Shown here: in pieces, positions 1,945 to 58,885 of the stretch
Layout of the letters: each line of letters opens with the position of its first letter
Numbering within the stretch: the stretch's first letter is position 1
From: Sandaracinaceae bacterium
Lineage (GTDB): Bacteria; Myxococcota_A; Polyangia; Polyangiales; Sandaracinaceae
Length of the DNA: 64,000 nucleotides
Reading direction: 5' to 3'
Assembly: GCA_019637095.1 (NCBI GenBank)
Contig: JAHBWG010000037.1
Span: 1-64,000 of the forward strand
Translations under genes and position numbers: made by a program
Notes under the pieces: generated by a model
Told to the model about the DNA's origin: nothing
Database searches by the model: none
What the model saw: the letters and a program-made list of their open reading frames with translations, nothing else

Positions 1945-1951
1945 CTTGCTG

Positions 1952-2195
1952 GAGGGGCTGTTCCAGCCCCTCGCCCCATGCGGCAAAGCCGCATGGGGCC
2001 CCCCTCCCAAGACGAACGCGGCGGAGCCGCGTTCGACCCCATCGCGGGGCGATGGGGCCCCCTCGGCCAACGGCCATCGCGCAGCGATGGCCTGGCCTCG
2101 ATGGCGCGTGGGCGCTTGTGGGGCCCCCTCGGCCAACGGCCATCGCGCAGCGATGGCCTGGGCGCTCGGGGACGATCCTCGTCATCGCGTCATTC
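1952..2195 (+). repeat. multi-hairpin palindromic repeat element, copy 1
   Basis: This gene-free stretch of 330 bp (1945-2274) is filled by successive palindromes. H1 is GAGGGGCTG-TTC-CAGCCCCTC (1952-1972). H2 has an 11-bp stem with loop AAA (1974-1998). H3 is CGAACGCGGC-GGA-GCCGCGTTCG (2013-2035). H4 is CCCCATCG/CGATGGGG (2037-2057). H5 is GGCCATCGC-GCA-GCGATGGCC (2072-2092). H5 recurs inside an exact 43-bp direct repeat (2053-2095 and 2119-2161). The tail carries the small GACGA-TCC-TCGTC hairpin (2171-2183). The same modules in the same order occur at 40.7-40.9 and 51.2-51.4 kb. Short open frames crossing this region are not genes. Confidence 0.9.
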
Positions 2196-2274
2196 CGTGA
2201 GGCGCCTGCCTCGCCTCATGGAGAATCGCGGCGCGTTCGGGATCGTGGGCTCGGGCGTGGTACGCTCACGCTGA

Positions 2275-24415: not shown

Positions 24416-26110
24416 ATGACGTGGATCCTCATCACGGGAGCGAGCCGGGGGATCGGTCGCGCGAGCGCGCTGCGGCTCGCGGCGGCGGGGGCGCGCGTGA
24501 TCGCGACGGGGCGCGACGTCGAGGCGCTCGGCGCGCTCGAGCGCGAGGCCCGCGCGCGCGGCGGTGCGCTCACGACGCTCCGGCTCGACGTGGACGACGC
24601 GCGCTCCGTCGAGGCCGCCGCCGCCGCGGTGCACGAGCGCACCGCGGGCTATGGGCTCGACGTGCTCGTGAACAACGCGGGCTTCGGCGAGATGACGCCG
24701 ATCGTGCGCTGCGGCGCGGGGCGCGAGCGGCGCATGTTCGAGACGAACCTCGTCGGCGCGGCGCGCTGCGTGCGCGCGTTCCTGCCCGCGATGCGCGCGC
24801 GCGGGCGCGGGCGGATCGTGAACGTCGCGAGCCTGCTCGGGCGCATGGTGATGCCGCTGCAGGGTGTCTACGCGGCCGCGAAGCACGCGCTCGAGGCGAT
24901 GAACGACGCGCTGCGGCTCGAGGTGGAGCGCTTCGGCGTCGAGGTGCTCCTGCTCGAGCCCGGCGCGGTCGACACGCCGTTCAACGACGTCGCGTTCCGG
25001 GCGCTCGACGCGCTCGCGGCCGACCCGGACTACGGCGCCGCCGTGCGGCGCATGCAGCGGATCGAGGCGATGTACCGGCGCTCCGCGGCGCCGCCCGAGG
25101 CGCTCGCCGAGGCGCTCGAGCGGCTCTGCCTCGGCCCGTCGCCGTCCGCGCGCACGACGGCGCCCGGGTTCGCGCACGCGCAGCTCGAGGCGATGCGCGC
25201 CTCGCCGCGCGGGCTGAGGGAAGGCGTCTTGCGCGCTGCGCTCGCGCTCGGCCCCGAAGAGGACCGGCCGCCCGCCGCGCCGAGCCGCCGCGCGCTGGTC
25301 ACGGGCGCGGCCGGCGGGATCGGCAAGGAGGCTTGCTTCGCGCTCGCGCGCGCGGGCTGGCGCGTCGTCGCCACGGACATGAGCCCCGAGGGGCTCGCCG
25401 CGCTCGGAGCGCGCGCGAAGGAGCAGCGCCTCGCGATCGAGACGCGCGTGATGGACGTCACCGACGAGCGCTCGATCGCGTCGGTCGCCGATGGCCTCGC
25501 GCTCGACGTGCTGGTGAACAACGCGGGCTACGCCGAGGTGGCGCCGATCGAGCTCGCGACCGACGCGGCGTGGCACGACCAGCTCGCGGTGAACGTGCAC
25601 GGGATGTCGTCGGTCACGCGCGCGTTCGCGCCGGCGATGATGGCGCGCCGGCGCGGCCACGTGATCAACGTCTCGAGCGTGGTCGGCCGCGTCACGTTCC
25701 CGTTCCTCGGCGTCTACGGGGCGAGCAAGCACGCGGTCGAGGCGCTCACCGACGGGCTGCGCCTCGAGCTCGGCGGCTTCGGCGTGCGCGTGAGCGCGAT
25801 CCAGCCCGCGTTCATCCGCACCGGCTTCGCCGCGCGCGCCAAGGCGAGCCTCGCGCGCTACGACGTCTCGAGCGGCCCGTACGAGCGCGCGTTCACGCAG
25901 ATGGACCGCATCCTCGACCGGCTCGACAAGCTCGGCGGGGAGCCGCCCGACGTCGCGCGCGCGATCGTGCGCGCCGCGCGCAGCGCCTCGCCGCGGGCGC
26001 GCCAGCAGACGCCGTGGTCCGCGTGGCTCGCCGTGCGCACCGTGCCGTGGCTCCCGGTCTCGGTCGTCGACGCCGGCATGGCGCGCTTCATGGGCATGCG
26101 TCGAGAATGA
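24416..26110 (+). CDS. tandem double short-chain dehydrogenase/reductase
   Basis: Two complete classical SDR domains are joined in one 564-residue protein. Domain 1 has TGASRGIG (7-14), NNAG, the catalytic Ser in NVASLLG and YAAAK. Domain 2 has TGAAGGIG starting near residue 297, NNAG, Ser in NVSSVVG and YGASK. Both therefore keep the NAD(P)-binding glycine motif and the Ser-Tyr-Lys triad. The two halves are similar to each other, so an internal duplication is likely. The substrates are unknown; sequences such as MxxRRRGHVINVSS resemble the large group acting on lipids, steroids or polyketides. The stop codon lies within a small palindromic repeat. Confidence 0.88.
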   Translation: MTWILITGASRGIGRASALRLAAAGARVIATGRDVEALGALEREARARGGALTTLRLDVDDARSVEAAAAAVHERTAGYGLDVLVNNAGFGEMTPIVRCGAGRERRMFETNLVGAARCVRAFLPAMRARGRGRIVNVASLLGRMVMPLQGVYAAAKHALEAMNDALRLEVERFGVEVLLLEPGAVDTPFNDVAFRALDALAADPDYGAAVRRMQRIEAMYRRSAAPPEALAEALERLCLGPSPSARTTAPGFAHAQLEAMRASPRGLREGVLRAALALGPEEDRPPAAPSRRALVTGAAGGIGKEACFALARAGWRVVATDMSPEGLAALGARAKEQRLAIETRVMDVTDERSIASVADGLALDVLVNNAGYAEVAPIELATDAAWHDQLAVNVHGMSSVTRAFAPAMMARRRGHVINVSSVVGRVTFPFLGVYGASKHAVEALTDGLRLELGGFGVRVSAIQPAFIRTGFAARAKASLARYDVSSGPYERAFTQMDRILDRLDKLGGEPPDVARAIVRAARSASPRARQQTPWSAWLAVRTVPWLPVSVVDAGMARFMGMRRE

Positions 26111-26138
26111 CGAGGTGACGAGGATCGTCCCCTCACTC
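26104..26138 (-). repeat. small palindromic repeat (GACGA-TCC-TCGTC), copy 3
   Basis: On the - strand this reads GAGTGAGGGGACGATCCTCG and continues to TCGTCATTCTC, with the hairpin at 26117-26129. It begins in the stop codon of the lipoprotein gene (TGA at 26135-26133) and its far end covers the stop of the convergent SDR gene. The copy at 58849-58880 has the same relation to a stop codon. Other copies are at 2168-2195 and 22637-22656. Confidence 0.8.
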
Positions 26139-29266: not shown

Positions 29267-32200
29267 ATGAGCGACGAAGACCACGCGAAGCTCCAGGAGA
29301 TGGTGACCCTCTACAAGCAGGGTCTCCTGGTCAACCCCAAGGACGTCCGCAAGCGCTTCCAGCTCGCCGCCGCGTACCACCGGCTCGGCGATCTCGACAA
29401 AGCGATCAAGGAGTACGAGACGGCGCGCAAGACGAGCGCCGATCACTACGCCTGCCGCTTCGGGCTCGGACGCGCGTACCTCGAGCTCGGCGACGTGCCC
29501 GCGGCGACCGCGGTGCTGCGCGAGGCGGCGGAGATCAAGCCCGACAGCACGGAGTGCCAGCACCTGCTCGGTGAGCTGGCCGTGCAGGCCAAGCAGCCCG
29601 ACGTCGCGGCGACCGCGTACCTCGCGGTCACGGTGCTCGAGAAGGACGCGAGCCCGCCCGAGTACCCCGACGCGCCGAAGAAGGGCGGCGACGCGTGCGT
29701 CGAGGTCCAGCGCTGGCAGGACGCGATCACCTGCTTCGAGCGTGGCCTCTCGCTCGCGCCCAACGATCCCGCGCAGCTCTACCCGCTCGGCCGCGCGTAC
29801 AACGCGACCGCGCAGTGGGCCAACGCGCAGCGCACGCTCGAGGCGCTCGTCGATCAGGTCCGCGATCACGTCGCGGGGCTCAAGCTGCTCGGCGAGGCCT
29901 GCAAGAACACCGGCGACGACGAGCGCGCGATCGACGCGTACCGCCGCGCGCTCGATCTCGACCCCGACTACCTCGACGGCTACATCGCGATCGGCGGCGT
30001 GTACGAGCACGTCGGCCAAGATCAGGAGGCACACAACTCCTACAAGATCGCGCTGCGCTTCCTGCCGGACGACGGCTCGATCTACTTCAAGCTCGGCCGC
30101 TGCCTGCGGCGGCTGAACAAGCCCGAGGAGGCGCACGAGCGCTTCCTCAAGGCCAGCACGCTGCTGCGCGACGATCCGGACGTGTTCCTCCAGCTCGGCC
30201 TCGTCGAGATGGAGCTCGCGCGCTGGGAGGACGCGGAGACGTCGCTCGCCGAGGCGGCGAGCCGGCGGCCCGGCCACCAAGCGACGCAAGAGGCGGTCGC
30301 GGCGGTCAAGACGCAGCTCGGAAAGGACGAGGAGGTCGTCGGCGCGTGGGAGAGCGTGGTCGCGCTCGATGCCGAGAACATGGAGGCGTGGGTCGCCCTC
30401 GCGCGGCTCTACTTCAAGTACGGCAAGTGGGAGAAGTGCATCGACGCCGCCGTCCAGAAGCTCCGCAAGGACGACGAGGACGTCGAGATGCTCCGCCTGC
30501 GGGGCACCTCGCTGAACCTGCTCGGGCGCTTCGACGAGGCGGTGCCGATCCTCCAGAAGGCGACGCGCACCGCGCCCGAAGATGCGCAAGCGAGCTTGCA
30601 GCTCGCGATCTCCTACAACGGCGTCGAGCGCTGGCAGCAGGCGCAGCAGGCGGCCGAGAAGGCGATCCGGCTCTGGACGGAAGGTCCGGGCGCCGCCGAC
30701 GCGCCGCGCATGGATCTCGCGCGCGCGCACAAGGAGCTCGCCAAGGGCTGCAAGCAGCTCGGCGACGACCGCGAGGCGATCACCGCGTTCCGCGCGGCGG
30801 CCGAGCTCGATCGCGACTGGGTCGAGGGGCTCGTCGAGGCGGGCGCGCTCTGTGAGAAGCTCGAGCGCTGGGACGACGCGGCGGGCGCCTACGGCGAGGC
30901 GGCGGCCCGCAAGCCCGACGAGGTGAGCCTGCACCGCACGCACGGTGGCCTGCTCGAGCGGCTCGAGCGCTGGGTCGACGCGACCGCCGCGTGGGAGAAG
31001 GCGGTCAAGCTCGAGGAGGAAGACCACAAGAGCCTCACGCGCCTCGGCGTCGTGCTCTGCCGCCAGCGCGAGTGGGCCGAGGCGCGCAAGTACCTCACGC
31101 GCGCGGTGAAGATCCGCCCGGACGTCGGCGAGGCGTTCAAGGAGCTCGGCCAGGCGTGCCTCGAGCTCGGCGATCTCGACGCGGCGCAGGAGTACCTCGG
31201 CTCCGCGCTCGAGATCGACAGCAAGTGGGCCCTCGGCTACGCGCTCGCGGGCCGCCTGCACGAGGCCAAGGGCGAGCTGAAGGCCGCCGAGGAGCGGCTG
31301 ATCAAGGCGGTCGAGCTCGCGCCCGAGGAGGTCTCGCTCTCGGGGCTGCTCGGCCGCGTGCGGGTGAAGCTCGCGAAGTACGCCGAGGCGCTCGATCCGC
31401 TCAAGGCGGCGGTGCGCGCGGCGCCCGAGGACGGCGCGCTGCGCGTCGCCTACGGCACGGCGCTCTTGCGCACCGAGAGCGGTGAGGCGGCCGCGGAGCA
31501 GCTCCGTCAGGCGGTGCGCCTGTTGCCCGCCGACGCGGACGCGCACGCGCTCCTCGGCGAGACCGCGCGCGTGCTCGGCGAGACCGCCGAGGCGATCGCG
31601 AGCTACGCGAAGGCCGTCGAGCTCGCGCCGTCGCGGCACGCGTGGCTGCGCCCGCTCGCGGAGCTGCAAGCCGACGCGCGCGACGACGCGGCCTCGAGCG
31701 CGACGTGGCAGCGCGCCATCGACGCGAGCCCGGACGACTCGGAGCTCTGGGCCGGTCATGGCGCGGTCCTGCAGCGGCTCGGTCAGCACGAGGCGTCGGC
31801 GGCGGCGTACGCGAAGGCGGTCGAGCTCGGCGGCGACGACAGCAAGCGCCTCTTGATCGACCTCGGCCTCGGCTACGTGCGCTCCTCGCAGTGGGAGCGC
31901 GCTCGCGAGGCGCTGACGAAGTGCGTCGAGCTCTCGCCGAACAACGCGGACGTGCACGAGAACCTCGGCGTCGCGCAGCGGCACCTCGGCGAGCTGCCGA
32001 ACGCGGAGCGCTCGTTCGCCAAGGCGATCGAGCTCGATCCGGCGCGCGGCGCGGCCAAGCGCGCGCTCGCCGAGGTGCGCGTGCAGCTCGGCAAGAAGGA
32101 GGCGGCGGTCGAGGCGTACCGCGCCGCGATCGACGCGCTGCCGCCCGAGGCCGCGCTCCACGCGGCGCTCGCCGGCCTGCTCGAGGAGCTCGGCCGCACC

Positions 32201-35200
32201 GAGGCCGCCGCGGACGCGTACGAGAAGGCGGTCGCGCTCGCGCCGACCGACGCGGCGTTGCTCTGCCGGCTCGGGCTCGCGTCGGTCGAGGCCCAGCGCT
32301 GGGAGCGCGCCTACGACGCGCTCGATCAGAGCGTCGGGTTCGACCCGCGCGTGGCCGAGGCGCACCACGGGCTCGGGCTCGCGAGCGAGCACCTCGACAA
32401 GCTCGGCGCCGCGGTGAAGGCGTTCGCGCGCGCGACGGAGCTCTCGCCCGAGCGCGGCGAGAGCTGGGTGGCGCTCGGTCGCGCGAACCGCGCGATGGAG
32501 CAGGACGCCGACGCCGAGGCCGCGCTCGCGCGCGCGGTTCAGCTCCTGCCCCAGGACGACACGGTCCACGCCGCGCACGGCGCGGTGCTCTACGCGCTCG
32601 GCAAGCTGGGCGCGGCCGAGCGGGCCTACGCGCGCGCGCTCGAGCTCGAGCCGGACTCGGCCGATCACTACCTCGGCAAGGCGCGCGCCGAGGAGGAGCA
32701 GGAGAAGTTCGAGGCGGCCCGCACCTCGCTGCGTCAGGCGACGCGCATCCGCCCCGACGACGCCGAGGCGCAGCTCCGCCTCGGGCGCGCGTGCGCGCGC
32801 CTCCACATGAACGACGAGGCGCTCGCCGCGCTGCTCGAGAGCACCCGGCTCGACGCGACCAGCGGCGAGGCGTTCGCCGCCCTCGCGGATCTGCACGCGG
32901 CGATGGGCGACCGCGAGCTCGCCGTGCGCGCCTTCGCGAAGGCGACCGAGCTCGACCCGGGCGAGGAGTCCGTCTTGCGCCGCTACGCCGCGCTGTTGAC
33001 CGAGCTCGGCCGTCACGGCGAGGCGGCCGCGGCGTTCGCGCGGATCGCGAAGCTCAGCGCCGATGACCCCGACGCGCAGCTCGCGCTCGGCCGCGCGCAC
33101 GCCGCCGGCGGTGCATGGGAGGCAGCGCGCGAGGCGTTCCGCGCCGCCGCGCACGCCACGCCGGATCGCGCCGACCCTCACCGCGAGCTCGCCAAGGCGT
33201 GCGTCGCGCTCGGCGCACACGAGGACGCGGCGCTCGCGTTCAAGAAGCTCCTCGGCGTCGCCTCGCACGACCCGGAGGCGCTCGCCGGGCTCGGCGCCGC
33301 GTACCTCGCGCTCGGCCGGGAGGTCGACGCGGTCGATCCGCTCACGAAGGTCGTCGAGCTGCGCCCCGAAGATCCGGCGCTGCGCGCGCAGCTCGGCGGC
33401 GCGCTGTTCGCCCTCGGCCGCGTCGAGAGCGCGATCCCGCACCTCGCCAAGGCCGCGGAGCTCGTCCCGCGCGACGCCGACGCGCTCTTGGTGCTCGGCC
33501 GCGCGCAGGCGGACAAGGGCGATCACGCGCAGGCGGTGAACGCGCTGCGGCGCGCGGCGGACGTCGCGCCCTCGCGCCTCGACGTCGCGCGCGCGCTCGG
33601 CGCGAGCGCCGCCGCGCTCGGGCAGCACGAGCTCGCCGCGATCACCTGGGAGCGCGTGACCAAGGCCGAGGCCGAGGACGCCGACGCGTGGGTCGCGCTC
33701 TCGCGCGCGCGCCTCGCGCTCGCCGATCCGGTGCGCGCCGCGGAGGCCCTGCGCGAGGCGCTCGGGCACCGGCCCGCGGAGCCGGCTCTGCACGCCGAGC
33801 TCGGCGATCTCTGGATGAAGGTCGACCGGCACGCCGACGCGCTCGCGAGCTACGAGAGCGCGATCGGGCTGTTGCCCGACGACGGCACGCTGCACCTCAA
33901 GCGCGGGCTCGCGCTCAAGGCGCTGGGCAAGGCCGCCGAGGCGCGCGCCTCGTTCGAGGAGGCGACGCGCCGCGCGCCGCAGCTCCGGCAGGCGTGGGTG
34001 GAGCGCGCGCGAGCGGAGCAGGCGTTCGGTGCGCGCGAGGTCGCCGTCGACGCGTGGAGCCGCGCGCTCGCGCTCGATCCGAACGACGCCGAAGGGCAGG
34101 GCGCGCTCGGGCACCTGCGGCTCGAGCTCGGCTTCGAGGAGGCGGCGATCGAGCCGCTCCGCAAGGCCGCGGCGCTCTCGCCGGCCGATCCGCTCGTGCA
34201 CGCGCGCCTCGGCGCGGCGCTCCTCGCGACGGGCGAGCACGGGGCCGCGCTCGAGCAGCTCGAGAAGGCGGCGGGGCTCGGCCTCGAGGACGCGGCCGGC
34301 TGGACGGACGTCGGGCGAGCGCGCCTGATCGCCGGGCAGCACGCGAAGGCGGTCGCCGCGTTCGGCGACGCGCTGCGCCTCGACACGCGCCGGCTCGGCG
34401 CGCTCGTCGGCAAGGCCGACGCGCAGGCGGCGCTCGGCCAGCACGCCGACGCGGTGATGGCCTATCGCGCGGCGATCGCGGACGAAGGCGATCTGCCGCC
34501 TGGCGTGCACGCGGCGCTCGGCCGCAGCCTGAGCGCGCTCGGCCGTCACCCGGAGGCGGTCGAGGCGTTCACCGCCGCGCACGGCGCGGCGCCCGGCGAC
34601 GCGGCGGTGCTCGCCGCGCTCGGCGTCGCCGAGGTCGCGTGCAACGCGTTCGAGCCGGCGATCGGGCACCTCGAGCGCGCGCTCGCGCTCTACCCGGACC
34701 AGCCCGAGGCGCGCCTCGCGCTCGGCCGCGCGTACGCGGGCGCTCAGCGCTGGAACGACGCGATCGGCGCGCTCGAGCGCGGGCTCACCGTGGTCTCCGA
34801 CAGCGGGCCCGGCTGGGCGGCGCTCGGCGACGCGCGCCGCGCGAACGACGCGCCCGAGGGCGCGATGGAGGCGTACCAGCGCGCGCTCGCGCTCGGCTAC
34901 GAGGGCGCCCGCCGCGGGCTCGGCATCCTGCTCGCCCAGGACATGCGCGACGACGAGGCCGCCGAGGCGCTCGAGGCGGCGGCGCAGAAGCTGCCGGACG
35001 ATCGCGAGCTCTTCGCGGTGCTCGCCGAGGTGCAGGAGCGCCGCGGCAAGCTCGACGACGCGGTGCGCCGCTACGAGCGCGCGGTGCTGCTCTCGGGCGG
35101 CGTCGACGCCGCGGACGACGGCGAGCTCGTGCTCGGCTACGGTCGCGCGCTCCACGCCAAGCAGCAGCTCGACCTGGCGCTGCGCGCGCTCACGCGCGCG

Positions 35201-38200
35201 GTGGCGCTCTTGCCCGGCTCGGCCGACGCCGCGTATCGCCGCGCGGACGTGCTCGCGGCGCTCGGCCGCGCCGACGACGCGATCGCGTCGTACCGCGCGG
35301 CGGCCGATCTCGCGCCCGGCTGGGCGGAGCCGCACCTCGCGATCGCGCGCCTGTGCGCCTCGCTCGGCCGCGACGAAGCGTCGCTCGTGCCGTTCCGCGC
35401 CGCGTCCGCGCTCGCGCCCGACGACGTCGAGGTCCACCTCGGCCTCGCCAGCGCGCTGGAGCGGCTCGGCCGCCACGAGGAGGCGATCACGAGCCTGCGC
35501 GCCGCGAGCCGCCTCGCCCCGGACGACGCCGCGCTCTACGCGCGGCTCGCCGCGGCGTGCGCCGAGGCGAGCCAGTGGGCCGAGGCGGCCGAGGCCTACC
35601 AGCGGGTCGTGCTGAGCGCGCCGAGCGCGGCGAGCTTCCTCGGCCTCGCGCGCGCCCGGCGCGCCACCGGCGACCTCGCGGCGGCGGAGCAAGCGTTCGC
35701 CGAGGCGGCGGCGGCCGCGGGCACCTTCGAAGCGTGGCTCGGGCTCGGCCAGGTGCGCGCGCGGCTCGGCCAGGATCCCGGCGCCGCCGACGCGCTCGCG
35801 CAGGCGGTCGCGCTGCGCTTGGATCACGCGGAGGCGCAGCGCACGCTCGGCGAGGTGCTCGCGCGGCTCGGCCGCCACGCGGAGGCGGCCCAGGCGCTCG
35901 AGGTCGCTACGCGGCTGCGGGCGGACGACGGCGTCGCGTGGGCGACGCTCGGGCGCGCCTACCAGGCCCTCGGCCGCGACGCCGACGCGGCGCGCGCGCT
36001 GGCGCGGGCATCGGAGATCGGGGAAGGCGGCCCGGACACGCTCCTCGCGCTCGCCGACGCGTACGCGCGCGAGGGCCGGGTCGGCGAGGCGGCGATCGCG
36101 CTCGCGAAGGCGCGCGCCGCCGCGCCGGCCGACGCGGACCTCCAGGCCACGGTCGCGCAGCGCCTCGTCGCGCTCTCGCGCATGGACGACGCGATCGCGG
36201 CGCAGCGCGCGTCGGTCGAGTTCGCGCCGAGCACGCGCCGCAAGCTCGAGCTCGGCGGCATGCTCCTGGCCGCCGGCGACCTGTCGGGCGCCGAGGCGGT
36301 GTACGCCGACGCGGCCGCGGAGGCCCCGCGCGACTTCGACGCGCAGCGCGGGCTCGGCAAGGTGTTCGCCGCCGCGGGCAAGCACGCGGACGCCGCGCGC
36401 GCGTTCGGCGCGGCGCTCCAGCTCCGGCCCGACCACGCGGACACCGCGTTCGAGGTCGGCCGCGCGCTCAACGCGCTCGGTCAGCACTTCGCCGCGCTGC
36501 CGGTCTTCGAGGCCGCGCTCGCGCAGGAGCCGCAGGACGCGGCGGGCCACGCGGCGTACGGTGACGCGCTCGCGGGAGCCGGCCGCCGCGACGACGCGCT
36601 CGTCGAGCTGCGCCGCGCGACCGAGCTCGCGCCCAAGGTGCCGGCGTTCCACCGGCGCCTCGGCGAGGTCTTGCGCACCCTCGGTCGCGCGGGCGAGGCC
36701 GTCGCCGCGTTCGCCGCGGCGGTGGAGCTCGCGCCCGACGACGCGACGAGCCAGCGCGGGCTCGGCCTCTCGCTCGCCGCGGAGGGCGAGCACGAGCGCG
36801 CGCTCGAGGCGATGTCCGCGGCGGTGACGCTCGGCGCGCAGGACGGCGGGCTCTCGGTCGGGATGGGCACGAGCCTCTACCACCTCGACCGCTTCGGCGA
36901 GGCGCGCGACTGGCTCAACGCGGCGCGCCACCAGGCGCCCAACGACGTCGAGGCGCGCTACTACCTCGGGCTGACCTCGCTCGCGCTGAACGATCACGCG
37001 CGCGCGAAGGCCGAGCTCGAGGCGGCGATCGCCGCCAAGCCCGAGGAGCCGCGCTACCTCGTCGGCCGCGGCCGCGTGCTCGAGGCGGAGCGGCAGCCGA
37101 GCCAGGCGGTGCGCGACTACGCGCGCGCCGCCGAGGTCGCGCCCGCGTATGCCCCCGCGCACGCCGAGGCGGCGCGCGTCTACCTCGCGCTCGGAATGCC
37201 GGCGGAGGCGGAGGTGCACTTCGCGAAGCTCGCCGAGCTCGACGACGACGTCGACGTGCTCCTCGGGCTCGCGAGGGCGCGCGAGGATCGCGGCGCGTAC
37301 GCCGAGGCCATCGCGCCGCTCGGCAAGGTGGTCCGCCTGCGGCCCGACGACGTCGAGCTGCGGCAGCGGTACGCGCGGGCTCTCTCGGGGGCGGGGCGGC
37401 TCGACGCGGCGGTCGACGCGCTGAAGGAGGCGATGCAGGTCGCGCCTGCGCCGGCGCGCGTCGCCGCGCAGCTCGCGGAGGCGTGCCGCGCGGCCGATCG
37501 CGCGTTCGATCTCGTGGACGCGCTCGTCGAGGCGCGCGATCGGCACCCCGACGACGCGACGCTGCGCACGCTGCTCGCGGAGGCGTACCGCGACGCGGAG
37601 CGGCTCGACGACGCGCTGCGCGAGGCGCAGACCGCCGTCGAGAAGGACGCGGGCGCGCGCGCCGCGTGGGCGCTGCTCGGGCGGCTGCGCCGCGCCAAGG
37701 GCGATCGCGAGGGCGCGCTCGAGGCGCTCCGCCGCGCGACGGCGGGCGAGGGCGTGTCCTGTGCCGACTGGGTGGAGCTCGCCGAGGCGTTCCGCGACGC
37801 GGACCAGCCCGAGCGCGGGCTCGACGCCGCGCGGCGCGGCCTGCGGCTCGACGAGGGCGACGCGCGCGCGTGGCGCGTCGTCGGCGAGCTCGAGCCCGAC
37901 GCCGACGTCGCGATCGAGCACCTCGAGCGCGCGCTCGCGCTCGCCCCCGACGACGCCCCGGCGATGCTCGCTCTGGGCGAGCGCCGCGTCGCGCAGAAGA
38001 AGCACGCCGAGGCGGTCGCGCTCCTCTCGCGCGCCGCCGAGGTGGGCGGGCGGACGCCGCGCCTCTCGCTCGCGCTCGTCGAGGCCTACGAGGGCGTCGG
38101 CAAGCTCGACGAGGCGTTCCGCGAGGTCAGCGCGCTCGTGAAGGAGGCGCCGAGCGCCGACGGCTACTACCGCATGGGCACGGTGCTCGCGCGGCAGGAG

Positions 38201-38797
38201 CGCTTCGACGAGAGCGCCGCGGCCCTGCAACGCGCCTTGCGATTGAACCCCGCCCACGCGTACGCGCAGTACCAGCTCGGCGCGGCGCTCATGCGCCTGT
38301 CGCGGCCGGAGGAGGCGATCGCCGCGTGGGAGGGCGCGTGCAGGAACGCGCCGGAGGATCCGGGCCTCAAGGCGGCCCTCGGCTTCGGCTACCTCAAGCT
38401 CGGGAAGAACAAGGAAGCGGGCGCCGCGTGCGCCGAGGCGGTGGCGCTCGGCCTGCGCGACGTGGACACGCTGATGAGCTTCGGCAAGCTCTTCGAGCGG
38501 CTCGACCGCCGCGAGGACGCCGTCGCCTCCTACAAGCGCATCGCCGAGGTCGACCCCGACTACGCGCCCGCGATGGGGCGGCTCGGCGAGAACCTCATGG
38601 AGCTGCGGCGCTTCGGCGAGGCGGTCGACCCTTACCAGCAGGCGATGCTGAGCGCGCCCGACGACCCGCAGATCCGCTACGGCCTCGGGATCTGCTACGC
38701 GAACCTCGGCCAGGACGCGGCCGCCGCCAAGCAGCTCGAGGCGCTGCGCAAGCTCGACCCGGATCTCGCGGACGAGCTCGCGTGGGTGATCGAGTGA
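29267..38797 (+). CDS. giant TPR-repeat protein, 3176 aa
   Basis: Almost the entire protein consists of about 90 tandem tetratricopeptide repeats of 34 residues (for example ALDLDPDYLDGYIAIGGVY and AVELAPSRHAWLRPLAELQ), beginning near residue 15 and running to the end. No signal peptide, membrane segment or catalytic domain was found. It should form a very long cytoplasmic superhelix that binds many partners. Repeat units differ in sequence but keep consensus Ala/Gly/Tyr/Pro positions, so the array looks old rather than freshly expanded. The stop overlaps the GTG of the following lipoprotein (GTGA). GACGAGGG lies just before the ATG. Confidence 0.9.
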   Translation: MSDEDHAKLQEMVTLYKQGLLVNPKDVRKRFQLAAAYHRLGDLDKAIKEYETARKTSADHYACRFGLGRAYLELGDVPAATAVLREAAEIKPDSTECQHLLGELAVQAKQPDVAATAYLAVTVLEKDASPPEYPDAPKKGGDACVEVQRWQDAITCFERGLSLAPNDPAQLYPLGRAYNATAQWANAQRTLEALVDQVRDHVAGLKLLGEACKNTGDDERAIDAYRRALDLDPDYLDGYIAIGGVYEHVGQDQEAHNSYKIALRFLPDDGSIYFKLGRCLRRLNKPEEAHERFLKASTLLRDDPDVFLQLGLVEMELARWEDAETSLAEAASRRPGHQATQEAVAAVKTQLGKDEEVVGAWESVVALDAENMEAWVALARLYFKYGKWEKCIDAAVQKLRKDDEDVEMLRLRGTSLNLLGRFDEAVPILQKATRTAPEDAQASLQLAISYNGVERWQQAQQAAEKAIRLWTEGPGAADAPRMDLARAHKELAKGCKQLGDDREAITAFRAAAELDRDWVEGLVEAGALCEKLERWDDAAGAYGEAAARKPDEVSLHRTHGGLLERLERWVDATAAWEKAVKLEEEDHKSLTRLGVVLCRQREWAEARKYLTRAVKIRPDVGEAFKELGQACLELGDLDAAQEYLGSALEIDSKWALGYALAGRLHEAKGELKAAEERLIKAVELAPEEVSLSGLLGRVRVKLAKYAEALDPLKAAVRAAPEDGALRVAYGTALLRTESGEAAAEQLRQAVRLLPADADAHALLGETARVLGETAEAIASYAKAVELAPSRHAWLRPLAELQADARDDAASSATWQRAIDASPDDSELWAGHGAVLQRLGQHEASAAAYAKAVELGGDDSKRLLIDLGLGYVRSSQWERAREALTKCVELSPNNADVHENLGVAQRHLGELPNAERSFAKAIELDPARGAAKRALAEVRVQLGKKEAAVEAYRAAIDALPPEAALHAALAGLLEELGRTEAAADAYEKAVALAPTDAALLCRLGLASVEAQRWERAYDALDQSVGFDPRVAEAHHGLGLASEHLDKLGAAVKAFARATELSPERGESWVALGRANRAMEQDADAEAALARAVQLLPQDDTVHAAHGAVLYALGKLGAAERAYARALELEPDSADHYLGKARAEEEQEKFEAARTSLRQATRIRPDDAEAQLRLGRACARLHMNDEALAALLESTRLDATSGEAFAALADLHAAMGDRELAVRAFAKATELDPGEESVLRRYAALLTELGRHGEAAAAFARIAKLSADDPDAQLALGRAHAAGGAWEAAREAFRAAAHATPDRADPHRELAKACVALGAHEDAALAFKKLLGVASHDPEALAGLGAAYLALGREVDAVDPLTKVVELRPEDPALRAQLGGALFALGRVESAIPHLAKAAELVPRDADALLVLGRAQADKGDHAQAVNALRRAADVAPSRLDVARALGASAAALGQHELAAITWERVTKAEAEDADAWVALSRARLALADPVRAAEALREALGHRPAEPALHAELGDLWMKVDRHADALASYESAIGLLPDDGTLHLKRGLALKALGKAAEARASFEEATRRAPQLRQAWVERARAEQAFGAREVAVDAWSRALALDPNDAEGQGALGHLRLELGFEEAAIEPLRKAAALSPADPLVHARLGAALLATGEHGAALEQLEKAAGLGLEDAAGWTDVGRARLIAGQHAKAVAAFGDALRLDTRRLGALVGKADAQAALGQHADAVMAYRAAIADEGDLPPGVHAALGRSLSALGRHPEAVEAFTAAHGAAPGDAAVLAALGVAEVACNAFEPAIGHLERALALYPDQPEARLALGRAYAGAQRWNDAIGALERGLTVVSDSGPGWAALGDARRANDAPEGAMEAYQRALALGYEGARRGLGILLAQDMRDDEAAEALEAAAQKLPDDRELFAVLAEVQERRGKLDDAVRRYERAVLLSGGVDAADDGELVLGYGRALHAKQQLDLALRALTRAVALLPGSADAAYRRADVLAALGRADDAIASYRAAADLAPGWAEPHLAIARLCASLGRDEASLVPFRAASALAPDDVEVHLGLASALERLGRHEEAITSLRAASRLAPDDAALYARLAAACAEASQWAEAAEAYQRVVLSAPSAASFLGLARARRATGDLAAAEQAFAEAAAAAGTFEAWLGLGQVRARLGQDPGAADALAQAVALRLDHAEAQRTLGEVLARLGRHAEAAQALEVATRLRADDGVAWATLGRAYQALGRDADAARALARASEIGEGGPDTLLALADAYAREGRVGEAAIALAKARAAAPADADLQATVAQRLVALSRMDDAIAAQRASVEFAPSTRRKLELGGMLLAAGDLSGAEAVYADAAAEAPRDFDAQRGLGKVFAAAGKHADAARAFGAALQLRPDHADTAFEVGRALNALGQHFAALPVFEAALAQEPQDAAGHAAYGDALAGAGRRDDALVELRRATELAPKVPAFHRRLGEVLRTLGRAGEAVAAFAAAVELAPDDATSQRGLGLSLAAEGEHERALEAMSAAVTLGAQDGGLSVGMGTSLYHLDRFGEARDWLNAARHQAPNDVEARYYLGLTSLALNDHARAKAELEAAIAAKPEEPRYLVGRGRVLEAERQPSQAVRDYARAAEVAPAYAPAHAEAARVYLALGMPAEAEVHFAKLAELDDDVDVLLGLARAREDRGAYAEAIAPLGKVVRLRPDDVELRQRYARALSGAGRLDAAVDALKEAMQVAPAPARVAAQLAEACRAADRAFDLVDALVEARDRHPDDATLRTLLAEAYRDAERLDDALREAQTAVEKDAGARAAWALLGRLRRAKGDREGALEALRRATAGEGVSCADWVELAEAFRDADQPERGLDAARRGLRLDEGDARAWRVVGELEPDADVAIEHLERALALAPDDAPAMLALGERRVAQKKHAEAVALLSRAAEVGGRTPRLSLALVEAYEGVGKLDEAFREVSALVKEAPSADGYYRMGTVLARQERFDESAAALQRALRLNPAHAYAQYQLGAALMRLSRPEEAIAAWEGACRNAPEDPGLKAALGFGYLKLGKNKEAGAACAEAVALGLRDVDTLMSFGKLFERLDRREDAVASYKRIAEVDPDYAPAMGRLGENLMELRRFGEAVDPYQQAMLSAPDDPQIRYGLGICYANLGQDAAAAKQLEALRKLDPDLADELAWVIE

Positions 38798-40051: not shown

Positions 40052-40687
40052 ATGAAGCTCTGGACCGACAGCTTCGCCGACGGCGCCGCCATCCCCGCCG
40101 AGCACGCGTTCGGCAAGCCCGACCCGACGAGCCACGTCACGCTCTCGGACAACCGCAACCCGCACGTCGCCTGGAGTGATCTGCCCGAAGGCACGCGCTC
40201 GCTCGTGCTCGTCTGTCACGACGTCGACGTGCCGAGCCGCGGCGACGACGTGAACCAGGAGGGCAAGCGCGTCCCGGCGGAGCTGCCGCGCGTCGACTTC
40301 TTCCACTGGCTGCTCTTCGACATCCCGCCCTCGCGGAGCGCGATCGCGGCTGGCGAGCTGTGCGACTCGGTGACCGCGCGCGGCAAGCCGGGCCCGGAGG
40401 CGCCCGGCGGCATGCGCCACGGCGTCAACGACTACACCGGCTGGTTCGCCGGCGACCCCGACATGGCCGGCACCTACTTCGGCTACGACGGACCGTGCCC
40501 GCCGTGGAACGACACGATCGTGCATCACTACCACTTCACGCTCTACGCGCTCGACGTCGCGCGCGCGCCGGTCGAGGGCGAGATCGGCGGCGCCCGCCTG
40601 CTCGAGGCGATCGAGCCGCACGTGCTCGACCGCGCCTCGTTCGTCGGGACCTACGCGATCGCCGCCGACGCCGTCGTGCGGCGCTGA
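40052..40687 (+). CDS. YbhB/YbcL family PEBP-like protein
   Basis: It belongs to the phosphatidylethanolamine-binding (RKIP-like) fold family. The conserved ligand-pocket motifs are LVCHDVDVPSRG (DPDAP-type loop) and YFGYDGPCPPWND followed by HHYHFTLYALD. The length of 211 residues is slightly more than bacterial YbhB. There is no signal peptide, so it is cytoplasmic, and its role is unknown in bacteria generally. GGAGGA lies 7 nt before the ATG. Seventeen nucleotides after the stop begins repeat element copy 2. Confidence 0.9.
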   Translation: MKLWTDSFADGAAIPAEHAFGKPDPTSHVTLSDNRNPHVAWSDLPEGTRSLVLVCHDVDVPSRGDDVNQEGKRVPAELPRVDFFHWLLFDIPPSRSAIAAGELCDSVTARGKPGPEAPGGMRHGVNDYTGWFAGDPDMAGTYFGYDGPCPPWNDTIVHHYHFTLYALDVARAPVEGEIGGARLLEAIEPHVLDRASFVGTYAIAADAVVRR

Positions 40688-40704
40688 GTGGCCGAGCTGG
40701 CGCT

Positions 40705-40860
40705 GGGGTGCCTCGCACCCCTCCCCGGTGCGAACGCGGCGGAGCCGCGTTCGACCCCGTCGCGGGGCGATGGGGCGATGGGGCCCCCCGGCCAACGGTC
40801 TTCGCTGCGCGATGGCCTGGCCTCGAACGGCGCCGTCGGTCGCGTGCGCGCTCGATCGAT
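40705..40860 (+). repeat. multi-hairpin palindromic repeat element, copy 2
   Basis: It begins 17 nt after the PEBP stop. H1' is GGGGTGC-CTC-GCACCCC (40705-40721), then H3 (40731-40753) identical to copy 1, H4 CCCCGTCG/CGATGGGG (40755-40775) and H5 GGTCTTCGC-TGC-GCGATGGCC (40797-40817). H2 is absent. The sequence after H5, to about 40860, is shared with copy 3 (both have CGCCGTCGG and CGCGTGCGC). G-T wobble pairs replace Watson-Crick pairs in H4, so the stems are kept while the sequence drifts. Confidence 0.88.
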
Positions 40861-51161: not shown

Positions 51162-51386
51162 GCGTTGGAACGTGCTCTTCCGCGAGCACGAGGTCTGTCG
51201 ACCAATCGAGAGCGCACGCGGCCGACGGCGTCGTTCGAGGCCAGGCCATCGCGCAGCGATGGCCGTTGGCCGAGGGGGCCCCATCGCCCCGCGATGGGGT
51301 CGAACGCGGCTCCGCCGCGTTCGCCTTGGGTGGGGGGCCCCGTCGCGGCTTTGCCGCGATGGGGGGAGGGGCTGGAACAGCCCCTC
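51162..51386 (-). repeat. multi-hairpin palindromic repeat element, copy 3
   Basis: This gene-free 282-bp stretch lies between convergent genes. In - strand order: H1 GAGGGGCTG-TTC-CAGCCCCTC (51386-51366) 7 nt after the stop of the secreted-protein gene, H2 (51364-51338), H3 (51323-51301), H4 (51299-51279), H5 (51264-51244), a shared tail, and the GCGTTGGAACGTGCTC module (51162-51187). H1 has exactly the same 7-nt spacing to the stop codon as in copy 1. H2 has an extra base pair compared with copy 1, so the helix is preserved. Confidence 0.9.
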
Positions 51387-51393
51387 CGCAAAC

Positions 51394-51945
51394 TCAGCGC
51401 GCGCGGCGGTAGGCGAGGGTGAAGCGGATGTCCTCGGCGAACATCGAGCTCGCGAGCGTGACGTCGAGCTGCATCGCGCCGTCGGCGCCGAGGCGATAGA
51501 CGTTGGTCTGCACGCCCTCGAGGGCCTGGAAGCGCTGCTCGACGGCGCCGTCGGGGCGCACGCTCTGGACGAGCTGCGCGTACTGGCCGCTGCGCAGCGG
51601 GACCTGGAGCACCTGCCCGGGGCGCGTCGCGAAGCGGCGACGCTCACGGCCTTCGAGCGCGACCTCGACGCGGCCGCCCGCGCCGCCGATGCGGATGCGC
51701 GTCGGGAGCCAGGTGCTCTCGCCGATCCGCTCGCGCGCGGCGGCCTGGATGTCCGGGCGCATGCGCAGCACGACCGGCTCGACCGCGGCCCGCACGATCG
51801 CCTCGCCGTCGGCGGGCGCGCCCGCGTAGCCCCAGGCGCCCGACACCGCGGCGCGGGAGGCTTGGCTCTGGCCCGCGGAGGGCGCGGCGGCGAGGGCGGC
51901 GAGGGCGAGCAGGGCGGCGGGGACGGCGAAGAGGGTGCGGCGCAT
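51394..51945 (-). CDS. secreted protein of unknown function, 183 aa
   Basis: The signal peptide MRRTLFAVPAALLALAALAAAPSAG is followed by a mature domain of about 155 residues rich in beta-strands (RIRIGGAGGRVEVALEGRE, LQVPLRSGQYAQLVQSV, MQLDVTLASSM). There is one Met-rich segment (VVLRMRPDIQ) but no Cys. It is probably periplasmic. The family was not recognised. ATG 51945 was chosen over an upstream in-frame ATG because it starts the signal peptide. The stop lies 7 nt from hairpin H1 of repeat copy 3. About 120 bp upstream of the start, to 52067, hold nothing clear. Confidence 0.65.
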   Translation of the reverse strand: MRRTLFAVPAALLALAALAAAPSAGQSQASRAAVSGAWGYAGAPADGEAIVRAAVEPVVLRMRPDIQAAARERIGESTWLPTRIRIGGAGGRVEVALEGRERRRFATRPGQVLQVPLRSGQYAQLVQSVRPDGAVEQRFQALEGVQTNVYRLGADGAMQLDVTLASSMFAEDIRFTLAYRRAR

Positions 51946-52067
51946 GACGAGTCGACTTGGCAAGGCGTAGGCCAACCATCGGGCGCGCGCCGGACGGGCG
52001 CCAGCCGTCCGCCGACCGCGGACGCGTGTTCACGTCCGCGCGTCACGTCCGCGCGTCGTTCGCGCCC

Positions 52068-58852: not shown

Positions 58853-58885
58853 GGGGACGATCCTCGTCATTTCGTCATTCTCCTC
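58849..58885 (+). repeat. small palindromic repeat (GACGA-TCC-TCGTC), copy 4
   Basis: GTGAGGGGACGATCCTCGTC begins in the stop codon (TGA 58850-58852) and continues to TCGTCATTCTC. The hairpin is at 58856-58868. It matches the copy at 26104-26138 almost base for base, including the position relative to the stop codon. Confidence 0.82.

Follow-up and report, generated by a model that had tools for sequence, protein, structure and literature searches.

The window analysed here is a 64,000-nucleotide stretch of a Sandaracinaceae bacterium draft genome (contig JAHBWG010000037.1, positions 1 to 64,000), in which rpmA, encoding ribosomal protein L27 (1690-1944), is followed by a 256-base region with five consecutive palindromes (H1-H5), a second H5 within an exact 43-bp repeat, and more hairpins. 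The rpmA stop codon TGA and a 6-nt leader, CTTGCT (1942-1950), fit the NNC-TGA-leader context of occupied sites described below, and precede the two frame hairpins, H1 (GGAGGGG..CCCCTC, 1951-1973) and H2 (CCCC-stem-GGGG, then CCCCCC(T/A)CCC, 1973-1999). H3 (2013-2035), H4 (2037-2057) and H5 (2065-2097), the last with a stem in two parts that shows covariation between two subfamilies, lie on the same plus strand, and the module formed by the end of H4 and H5 (2053-2095) recurs at 2119-2161 as the exact direct repeat. The full unit is ordered leader, H1-H5, tail. A second complete copy occupies 51235-51387 on the minus strand, 6 nt behind the stop of the gene at 51394-51951 and with a tail to ~51190, and a third, partial copy with a variant H1 and no H2 lies on the plus strand at 40702-40826, behind the gene at 40052-40687, with a tail to ~40880. 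The palindromes and the direct repeat described in an earlier note on this DNA are both present, and H1 starts at the seventh base behind the stop (a 6-nt spacer) at rpmA and in the inverted copy, as it had stated. Its claim that the same modules recur twice more in the same order holds for the copy at 51.3 kb but only in part for the one at 40.7 kb, and its sixth small hairpin exists (2194-2222) but lies outside the repeat. Folded as RNA, 1942-2222 is predicted to be far more stable than shuffled sequences (z -7.1, 0 of 200 shuffles), and no Rfam family exceeded its gathering score in the window (best E 0.17 at a relaxed threshold). On the minus strand, opposite the sense RNA, H1/H2 (1951-2006) has four G-runs split by the H2 stem, a possible G-quadruplex. 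Elsewhere in the window, 29267-38797 forms one reading frame, 3177 codons long, in which tandem repeats recur many times at a 102-base spacing, TPR-like on inspection.

A covariance model built from 29 copies gave at least 122 matches in the 9.25-Mb draft genome (150 of 27,042 candidates scored) and BLAST at least 50 (40 of 337 candidates scored), both being lower bounds because only part of the candidates was scored. The window copies are beyond chance, and arrays and mosaic units are common. On three whole contigs (433,254 bases) we found 13 matches in eight places, all eight in the sense orientation behind a gene end. We extracted 40 weaker covariance-model matches and called genes around them. 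A called same-strand stop lies no more than 15 nt upstream in 29 of the 40, five more (L371, L386, L391, L392, L397) show a comparable TGA and leader in their sequence, and the last six are later array units, or a unit with array remnants upstream; all 40 sit at gene ends or within arrays there. None is antisense by sequence reading, while the gene caller alone placed four behind an antisense gene and one behind none. The element is therefore dispersed, sense-oriented and anchored right behind stops, as the earlier note had proposed, and neither the random orientation and distance nor the lack of copies beyond three that it had named as contrary outcomes was found. With several hairpins in constant order, it is also larger and more ordered than single REPs, as the note had held. 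Judged by reading their proteins, the host genes appear to have no function in common (they include those for ribosomal protein L27, isocitrate lyase, threonine synthase and PriA), and convergent gene pairs are over-represented at occupied ends (30/54 versus 108/314 in the background).

The joint has a marked sequence context. In this genome all 55 occupied ends carry TGA, compared with 86.5% of 304 genes; C directly precedes the stop at 52 of the 55 ends and in 120 of the 304 genes (39%), and a base other than C stands two positions before the stop at 54/55 ends versus 200/304 in the background, these counts having been taken without re-checking the reading frame. Across five other genome sets, 34 of 53 occupied ends have C immediately before the stop, against a background of 203/668, and TAG and TAA are also used at occupied stops. 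Leaders (GTCTTC, GTTTGC, GCTTGC, CTTGCT and similar; AGCTGGCTG in genome G002) are alike within one genome and so belong to the element, and 17 of 43 tails contain a match to a motif resembling the GTCTTC of the left end. Several candidate features of the joint were rejected. A GAG target duplication at the ends did not fit one copy with a different left base, and an enrichment of TAG in the set G005/8 (6/10) reached p 0.002 with one background but 0.10 with another. A SECIS-like reading of UGA was discarded since orthologs stop at the same place without a hairpin and other genomes have TAG or TAA.

The frame GGAGGG-N8-14-CCCTCCCCCC-N12-28-GGGGCCCCCC, or, spelled with stems, GGAGGG-stem-CCCTCC-CCCC-stem-GGGGCCCCCC, is present in nine of 377 genomes from the phylum, and a reversed control matched nowhere. 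The nine carriers comprise five genomes of the same family (four genera) and four genomes from three other families, and their inner stems are entirely different, for example CTGTTCCAG, TCTTGGAAGA and TTTTTCGAAAAAA in H1. A scan of an 84,980-species collection returned at least 101 stretches with the frame; among the 80 matches listed, titles are myxobacterial (Myxococcota, Sandaracinaceae, Kofleriaceae, Polyangia, Polyangiaceae, Enhygromyxa) with the single exception of an 'uncultured proteobacterium', in which the H1 part folds differently. We found no report of these repeats in the literature searched, most subscription papers lying outside its reach. Position in relatives was assessed without a gene caller, by asking whether a reading frame of 100 codons or more has its stop no more than 25 nt upstream of the first unit of a cluster. 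This is the case for 19 of 21 first units in the own genome and, in the five other sets, for 10/18 (G005/8), 24/50 (G035), 4/4 (G112), 5/5 (G002) and 7/9 (G001/6), a pooled 50/86 compared with 6-7% of random positions. Several of the remaining first units come after terminator U-tracts or earlier array units. Relatives also have copies beginning 4 nt behind a tRNA-Cys gene, 8 nt behind a tRNA-Gln gene and 13 nt behind a tRNA-Met gene, and one that begins 2 nt behind an SRP RNA match, so that the stop codon is dispensable and what the sites share is the 3' end of a coding or non-coding gene. Gene-end copies here, together with differently spelled repeats of the same layout behind the genes of distant relatives, indicate that something places or keeps these repeats at gene ends. 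At G035 loci L043, L050, L122 and others, another hairpin repeat (AGGTCACGTGC..GGCGGGGGAG..) occurs just upstream of many copies. Several contigs of G008 end inside copies, and the element thus breaks draft assemblies.

Comparison of related gene ends bears on how the copies arose. The frame is absent from the 110 nt examined behind each of 26 related ends of six host genes in five genomes; the exception in style is isocitrate lyase in G007, which has similar G/C-run hairpins ~45 nt downstream. Five of the six host genes end at or near the native stop of their relatives. PriA (5/5) and an MmsA-like dehydrogenase (4/4) end exactly like their relatives and isocitrate lyase within one residue (5/5), so the repeat entered behind the native stop. 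The L27 protein encoded in the window lacks 12-14 C-terminal residues common to five relatives, and its C-terminus was possibly cut by the insertion. In the close pair G005/G008, 11 of 12 comparable sites are occupied in both genomes and one in G005 only, the unoccupied G008 allele continuing into other downstream DNA, and no clean empty site was obtained. At two of the 12 site pairs (G005 loci L032 and L255 versus G008 loci L238 and L256) the last 3-4 codons are rewritten synonymously right at the element edge, compared with a difference of 1-2% over the 1.4-1.7 kb upstream. In a search for empty sites between G001 and G006, the two 200-kb starts compared were not collinear and contained no copy. 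A site shared between related genes (L003 of G000 and L112 of G008) was set aside as one case that, by rough estimate, is not beyond chance.

The stems covary. For H1 across genomes, 83 cells are changed on both sides, compared with 29.9 in shuffles (sd 3.6), and inside the own genome the count is 47 compared with 15.9, figures that count sequences and not events because many cells are inherited. Selection on the sense RNA predicts that G-U pairs are kept more often than A-C pairs. Single-sided changes produced 42 G-U and 45 A-C (best 82 of 101 aligned matches, a few copies entering twice), and 13 and 11, respectively, in H1 across genomes. Selection on the sense RNA is unsupported because the two are equally frequent, which favours palindromes that matter as DNA, or freely decaying copies. 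A terminator search of 1900-2300 found none, and the element has no U-tract. Together with wobble changes free of strand bias and the relatives' copies behind intrinsic terminators, tRNA genes and an SRP RNA gene, this leaves the terminator or RNA stabiliser role suggested in the earlier note unsupported.

We searched for a mobiliser without finding one linked to the element. Three Y1 genes of the own genome are IS200 transposases, IS200 also being the best match there in the search for an associated REP tyrosine transposase, and the IS200 copies constitute a separate 658-bp repeat. A Y1 transposase was rejected as a demonstrable driver: an initial search had suggested carriers without any Y1 gene, whereas a second model, for REP transposases (NF047646), gave matches below its cut-off in all nine carriers. 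Presence or absence of Y1 cannot serve as proof either way because 16 of 28 non-carriers also have such relatives (2/28 above cut-off). None of 20 weak REP-transposase-like loci has the H1 frame within ~2 kb. No transposase family is common to the neighbours of own-genome loci, and large clusters of neighbouring genes in relatives proved to be reading frames over the repeat itself. A search for reverse transcriptase (RVT_1) found nothing in the own genome or in G035, both among the richest carriers. A second repeat family, GGGGACGATCCTCGTCA..TGACGAGGATCGTCCCC, ~61 bp when complete, is REPIN-like and unrelated to the five-hairpin element. Pieces of it occur in the window at 2168-2195 and 58853-58880 (plus strand) and 26105-26132 (minus strand), half copies lie 0 nt behind TGA stops, and at L406 one copy is directly behind a Y1-like, REP-transposase-like gene.

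Among known systems, the element resembles REPs, BIMEs and REPINs, which are described as short extragenic palindromes of high copy number, found in arrays and often close behind stops (PMC8266576, PMC12306157); in Escherichia coli, 446 of 4,072 predicted REPs are given as lying within 15 nt of a stop (PMC12306157). A C-T also stands at the stop, its putative joint, in 52/55 and 34/53 cases, CT being the dinucleotide at which REP transposases (TnpA-REP) are described to cut (PMC8266576). Unlike these repeats it is ~150-220 nt long, with five different hairpins in fixed order and one orientation, nearly all at gene ends. It is thus REP-like in several ways, yet lacks two defining REP/RAYT features, having no GTAG-type tetranucleotide 5' of the palindrome and no RAYT (TnpA-REP) found linked to it. 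Like MITEs and IS200/IS605-derived elements it is non-coding, dispersed and foldable as single-stranded DNA, but no terminal inverted repeats of the MITE type were seen across it. GC-rich hairpins directly behind stops are shared with intrinsic terminators and stabilising 3'-UTR structures, from which it differs in being repeated, modular, lineage-specific, without a U-tract and also located downstream of a terminator. G/C-run hairpins in many copies recall the intrastrand triplex motif TM-ECO (BoxC), although the order of runs departs from the published pattern (PMC4666352).

We favour, at a probability of roughly 0.55, a non-autonomous, REP-like mobile palindrome array placed in one orientation at gene ends. 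This reading builds on the copies, their orientation and position, the sequence context, the covarying stems and the lack of the frame behind related genes. The ordered array would be copied around the genome and land in one orientation exactly at gene 3' ends, mostly joining at an NNC-T(GA/AG/AA) stop codon. It may move as folded single-stranded DNA, with the left joint probably at a CT dinucleotide by analogy with REP transposases, and copies would decay after insertion without selection on the sense RNA. Restriction to gene ends is not explained by a CT target alone and would additionally require either a step that seeks out gene ends or the loss of insertions everywhere else. Many copies would be expected elsewhere in the genome if CT were the target, yet these are not seen, which counts against the reading. 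Against the mobile array as a whole, a linked mobiliser, a target duplication, a clean empty site and a GTAG leader all lack support. A functional 3'-UTR structure under selection, which would block 3' exonucleases, aid termination or stall terminating ribosomes, is possible but doubtful. Sense orientation, tight spacing to the stop, covarying stems and the excess of convergent pairs are all in keeping with it, and E. coli REPs are reported to stall ribosomes when they lie no more than 15 nt behind a stop (PMC12306157). The equal G-U and A-C counts and the missing U-tract weigh against such a structure, a Rho-independent terminator lying only a few bp past the end of a gene was nearly silent in E. 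coli (PMC4824070), and stalling would make no sense behind intrinsic terminators, three tRNA genes or an SRP RNA gene.

Those same non-coding anchors, along with stops, U-tracts and the sense orientation, would be explained if a reverse transcriptase copied the element RNA and jumped to the 3' end of another RNA. We consider such RNA-guided insertion very improbable, given the missing RVT_1 matches and the fact that no element RNA is known. Recombination, whether between gene ends or with diverged orthologs, is quite unlikely to have spread the element in place of transposition. It would accommodate the arrays, the mosaic units and the two rewritten G005/G008 pairs, but the other 10 of 12 pairs have no such rewriting and the host genes appear mutually unrelated. 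Returning to the mobile array, its insertion machinery might recognise the 3' end of any gene as such, whether it is a stop codon or the end of a tRNA, an SRP RNA or a terminator. It could do so by working on RNA 3' ends, for example, or on DNA that becomes accessible where transcription or translation comes to a halt. We regard this as unlikely. The location of most bacterial repeats is given loosely as extragenic, and we know of none for which targeting of gene 3' ends as such has been described; if true, gene-end-finding machinery would to that extent be a new targeting principle. The repeats form one superfamily of constant layout, with stems that differ from genus to genus and family to family, and its members occupy gene ends in a single orientation. 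They provide a natural system for asking how repeats recognise, or are tolerated only at, gene ends, and what effects they have on the RNAs that precede them.
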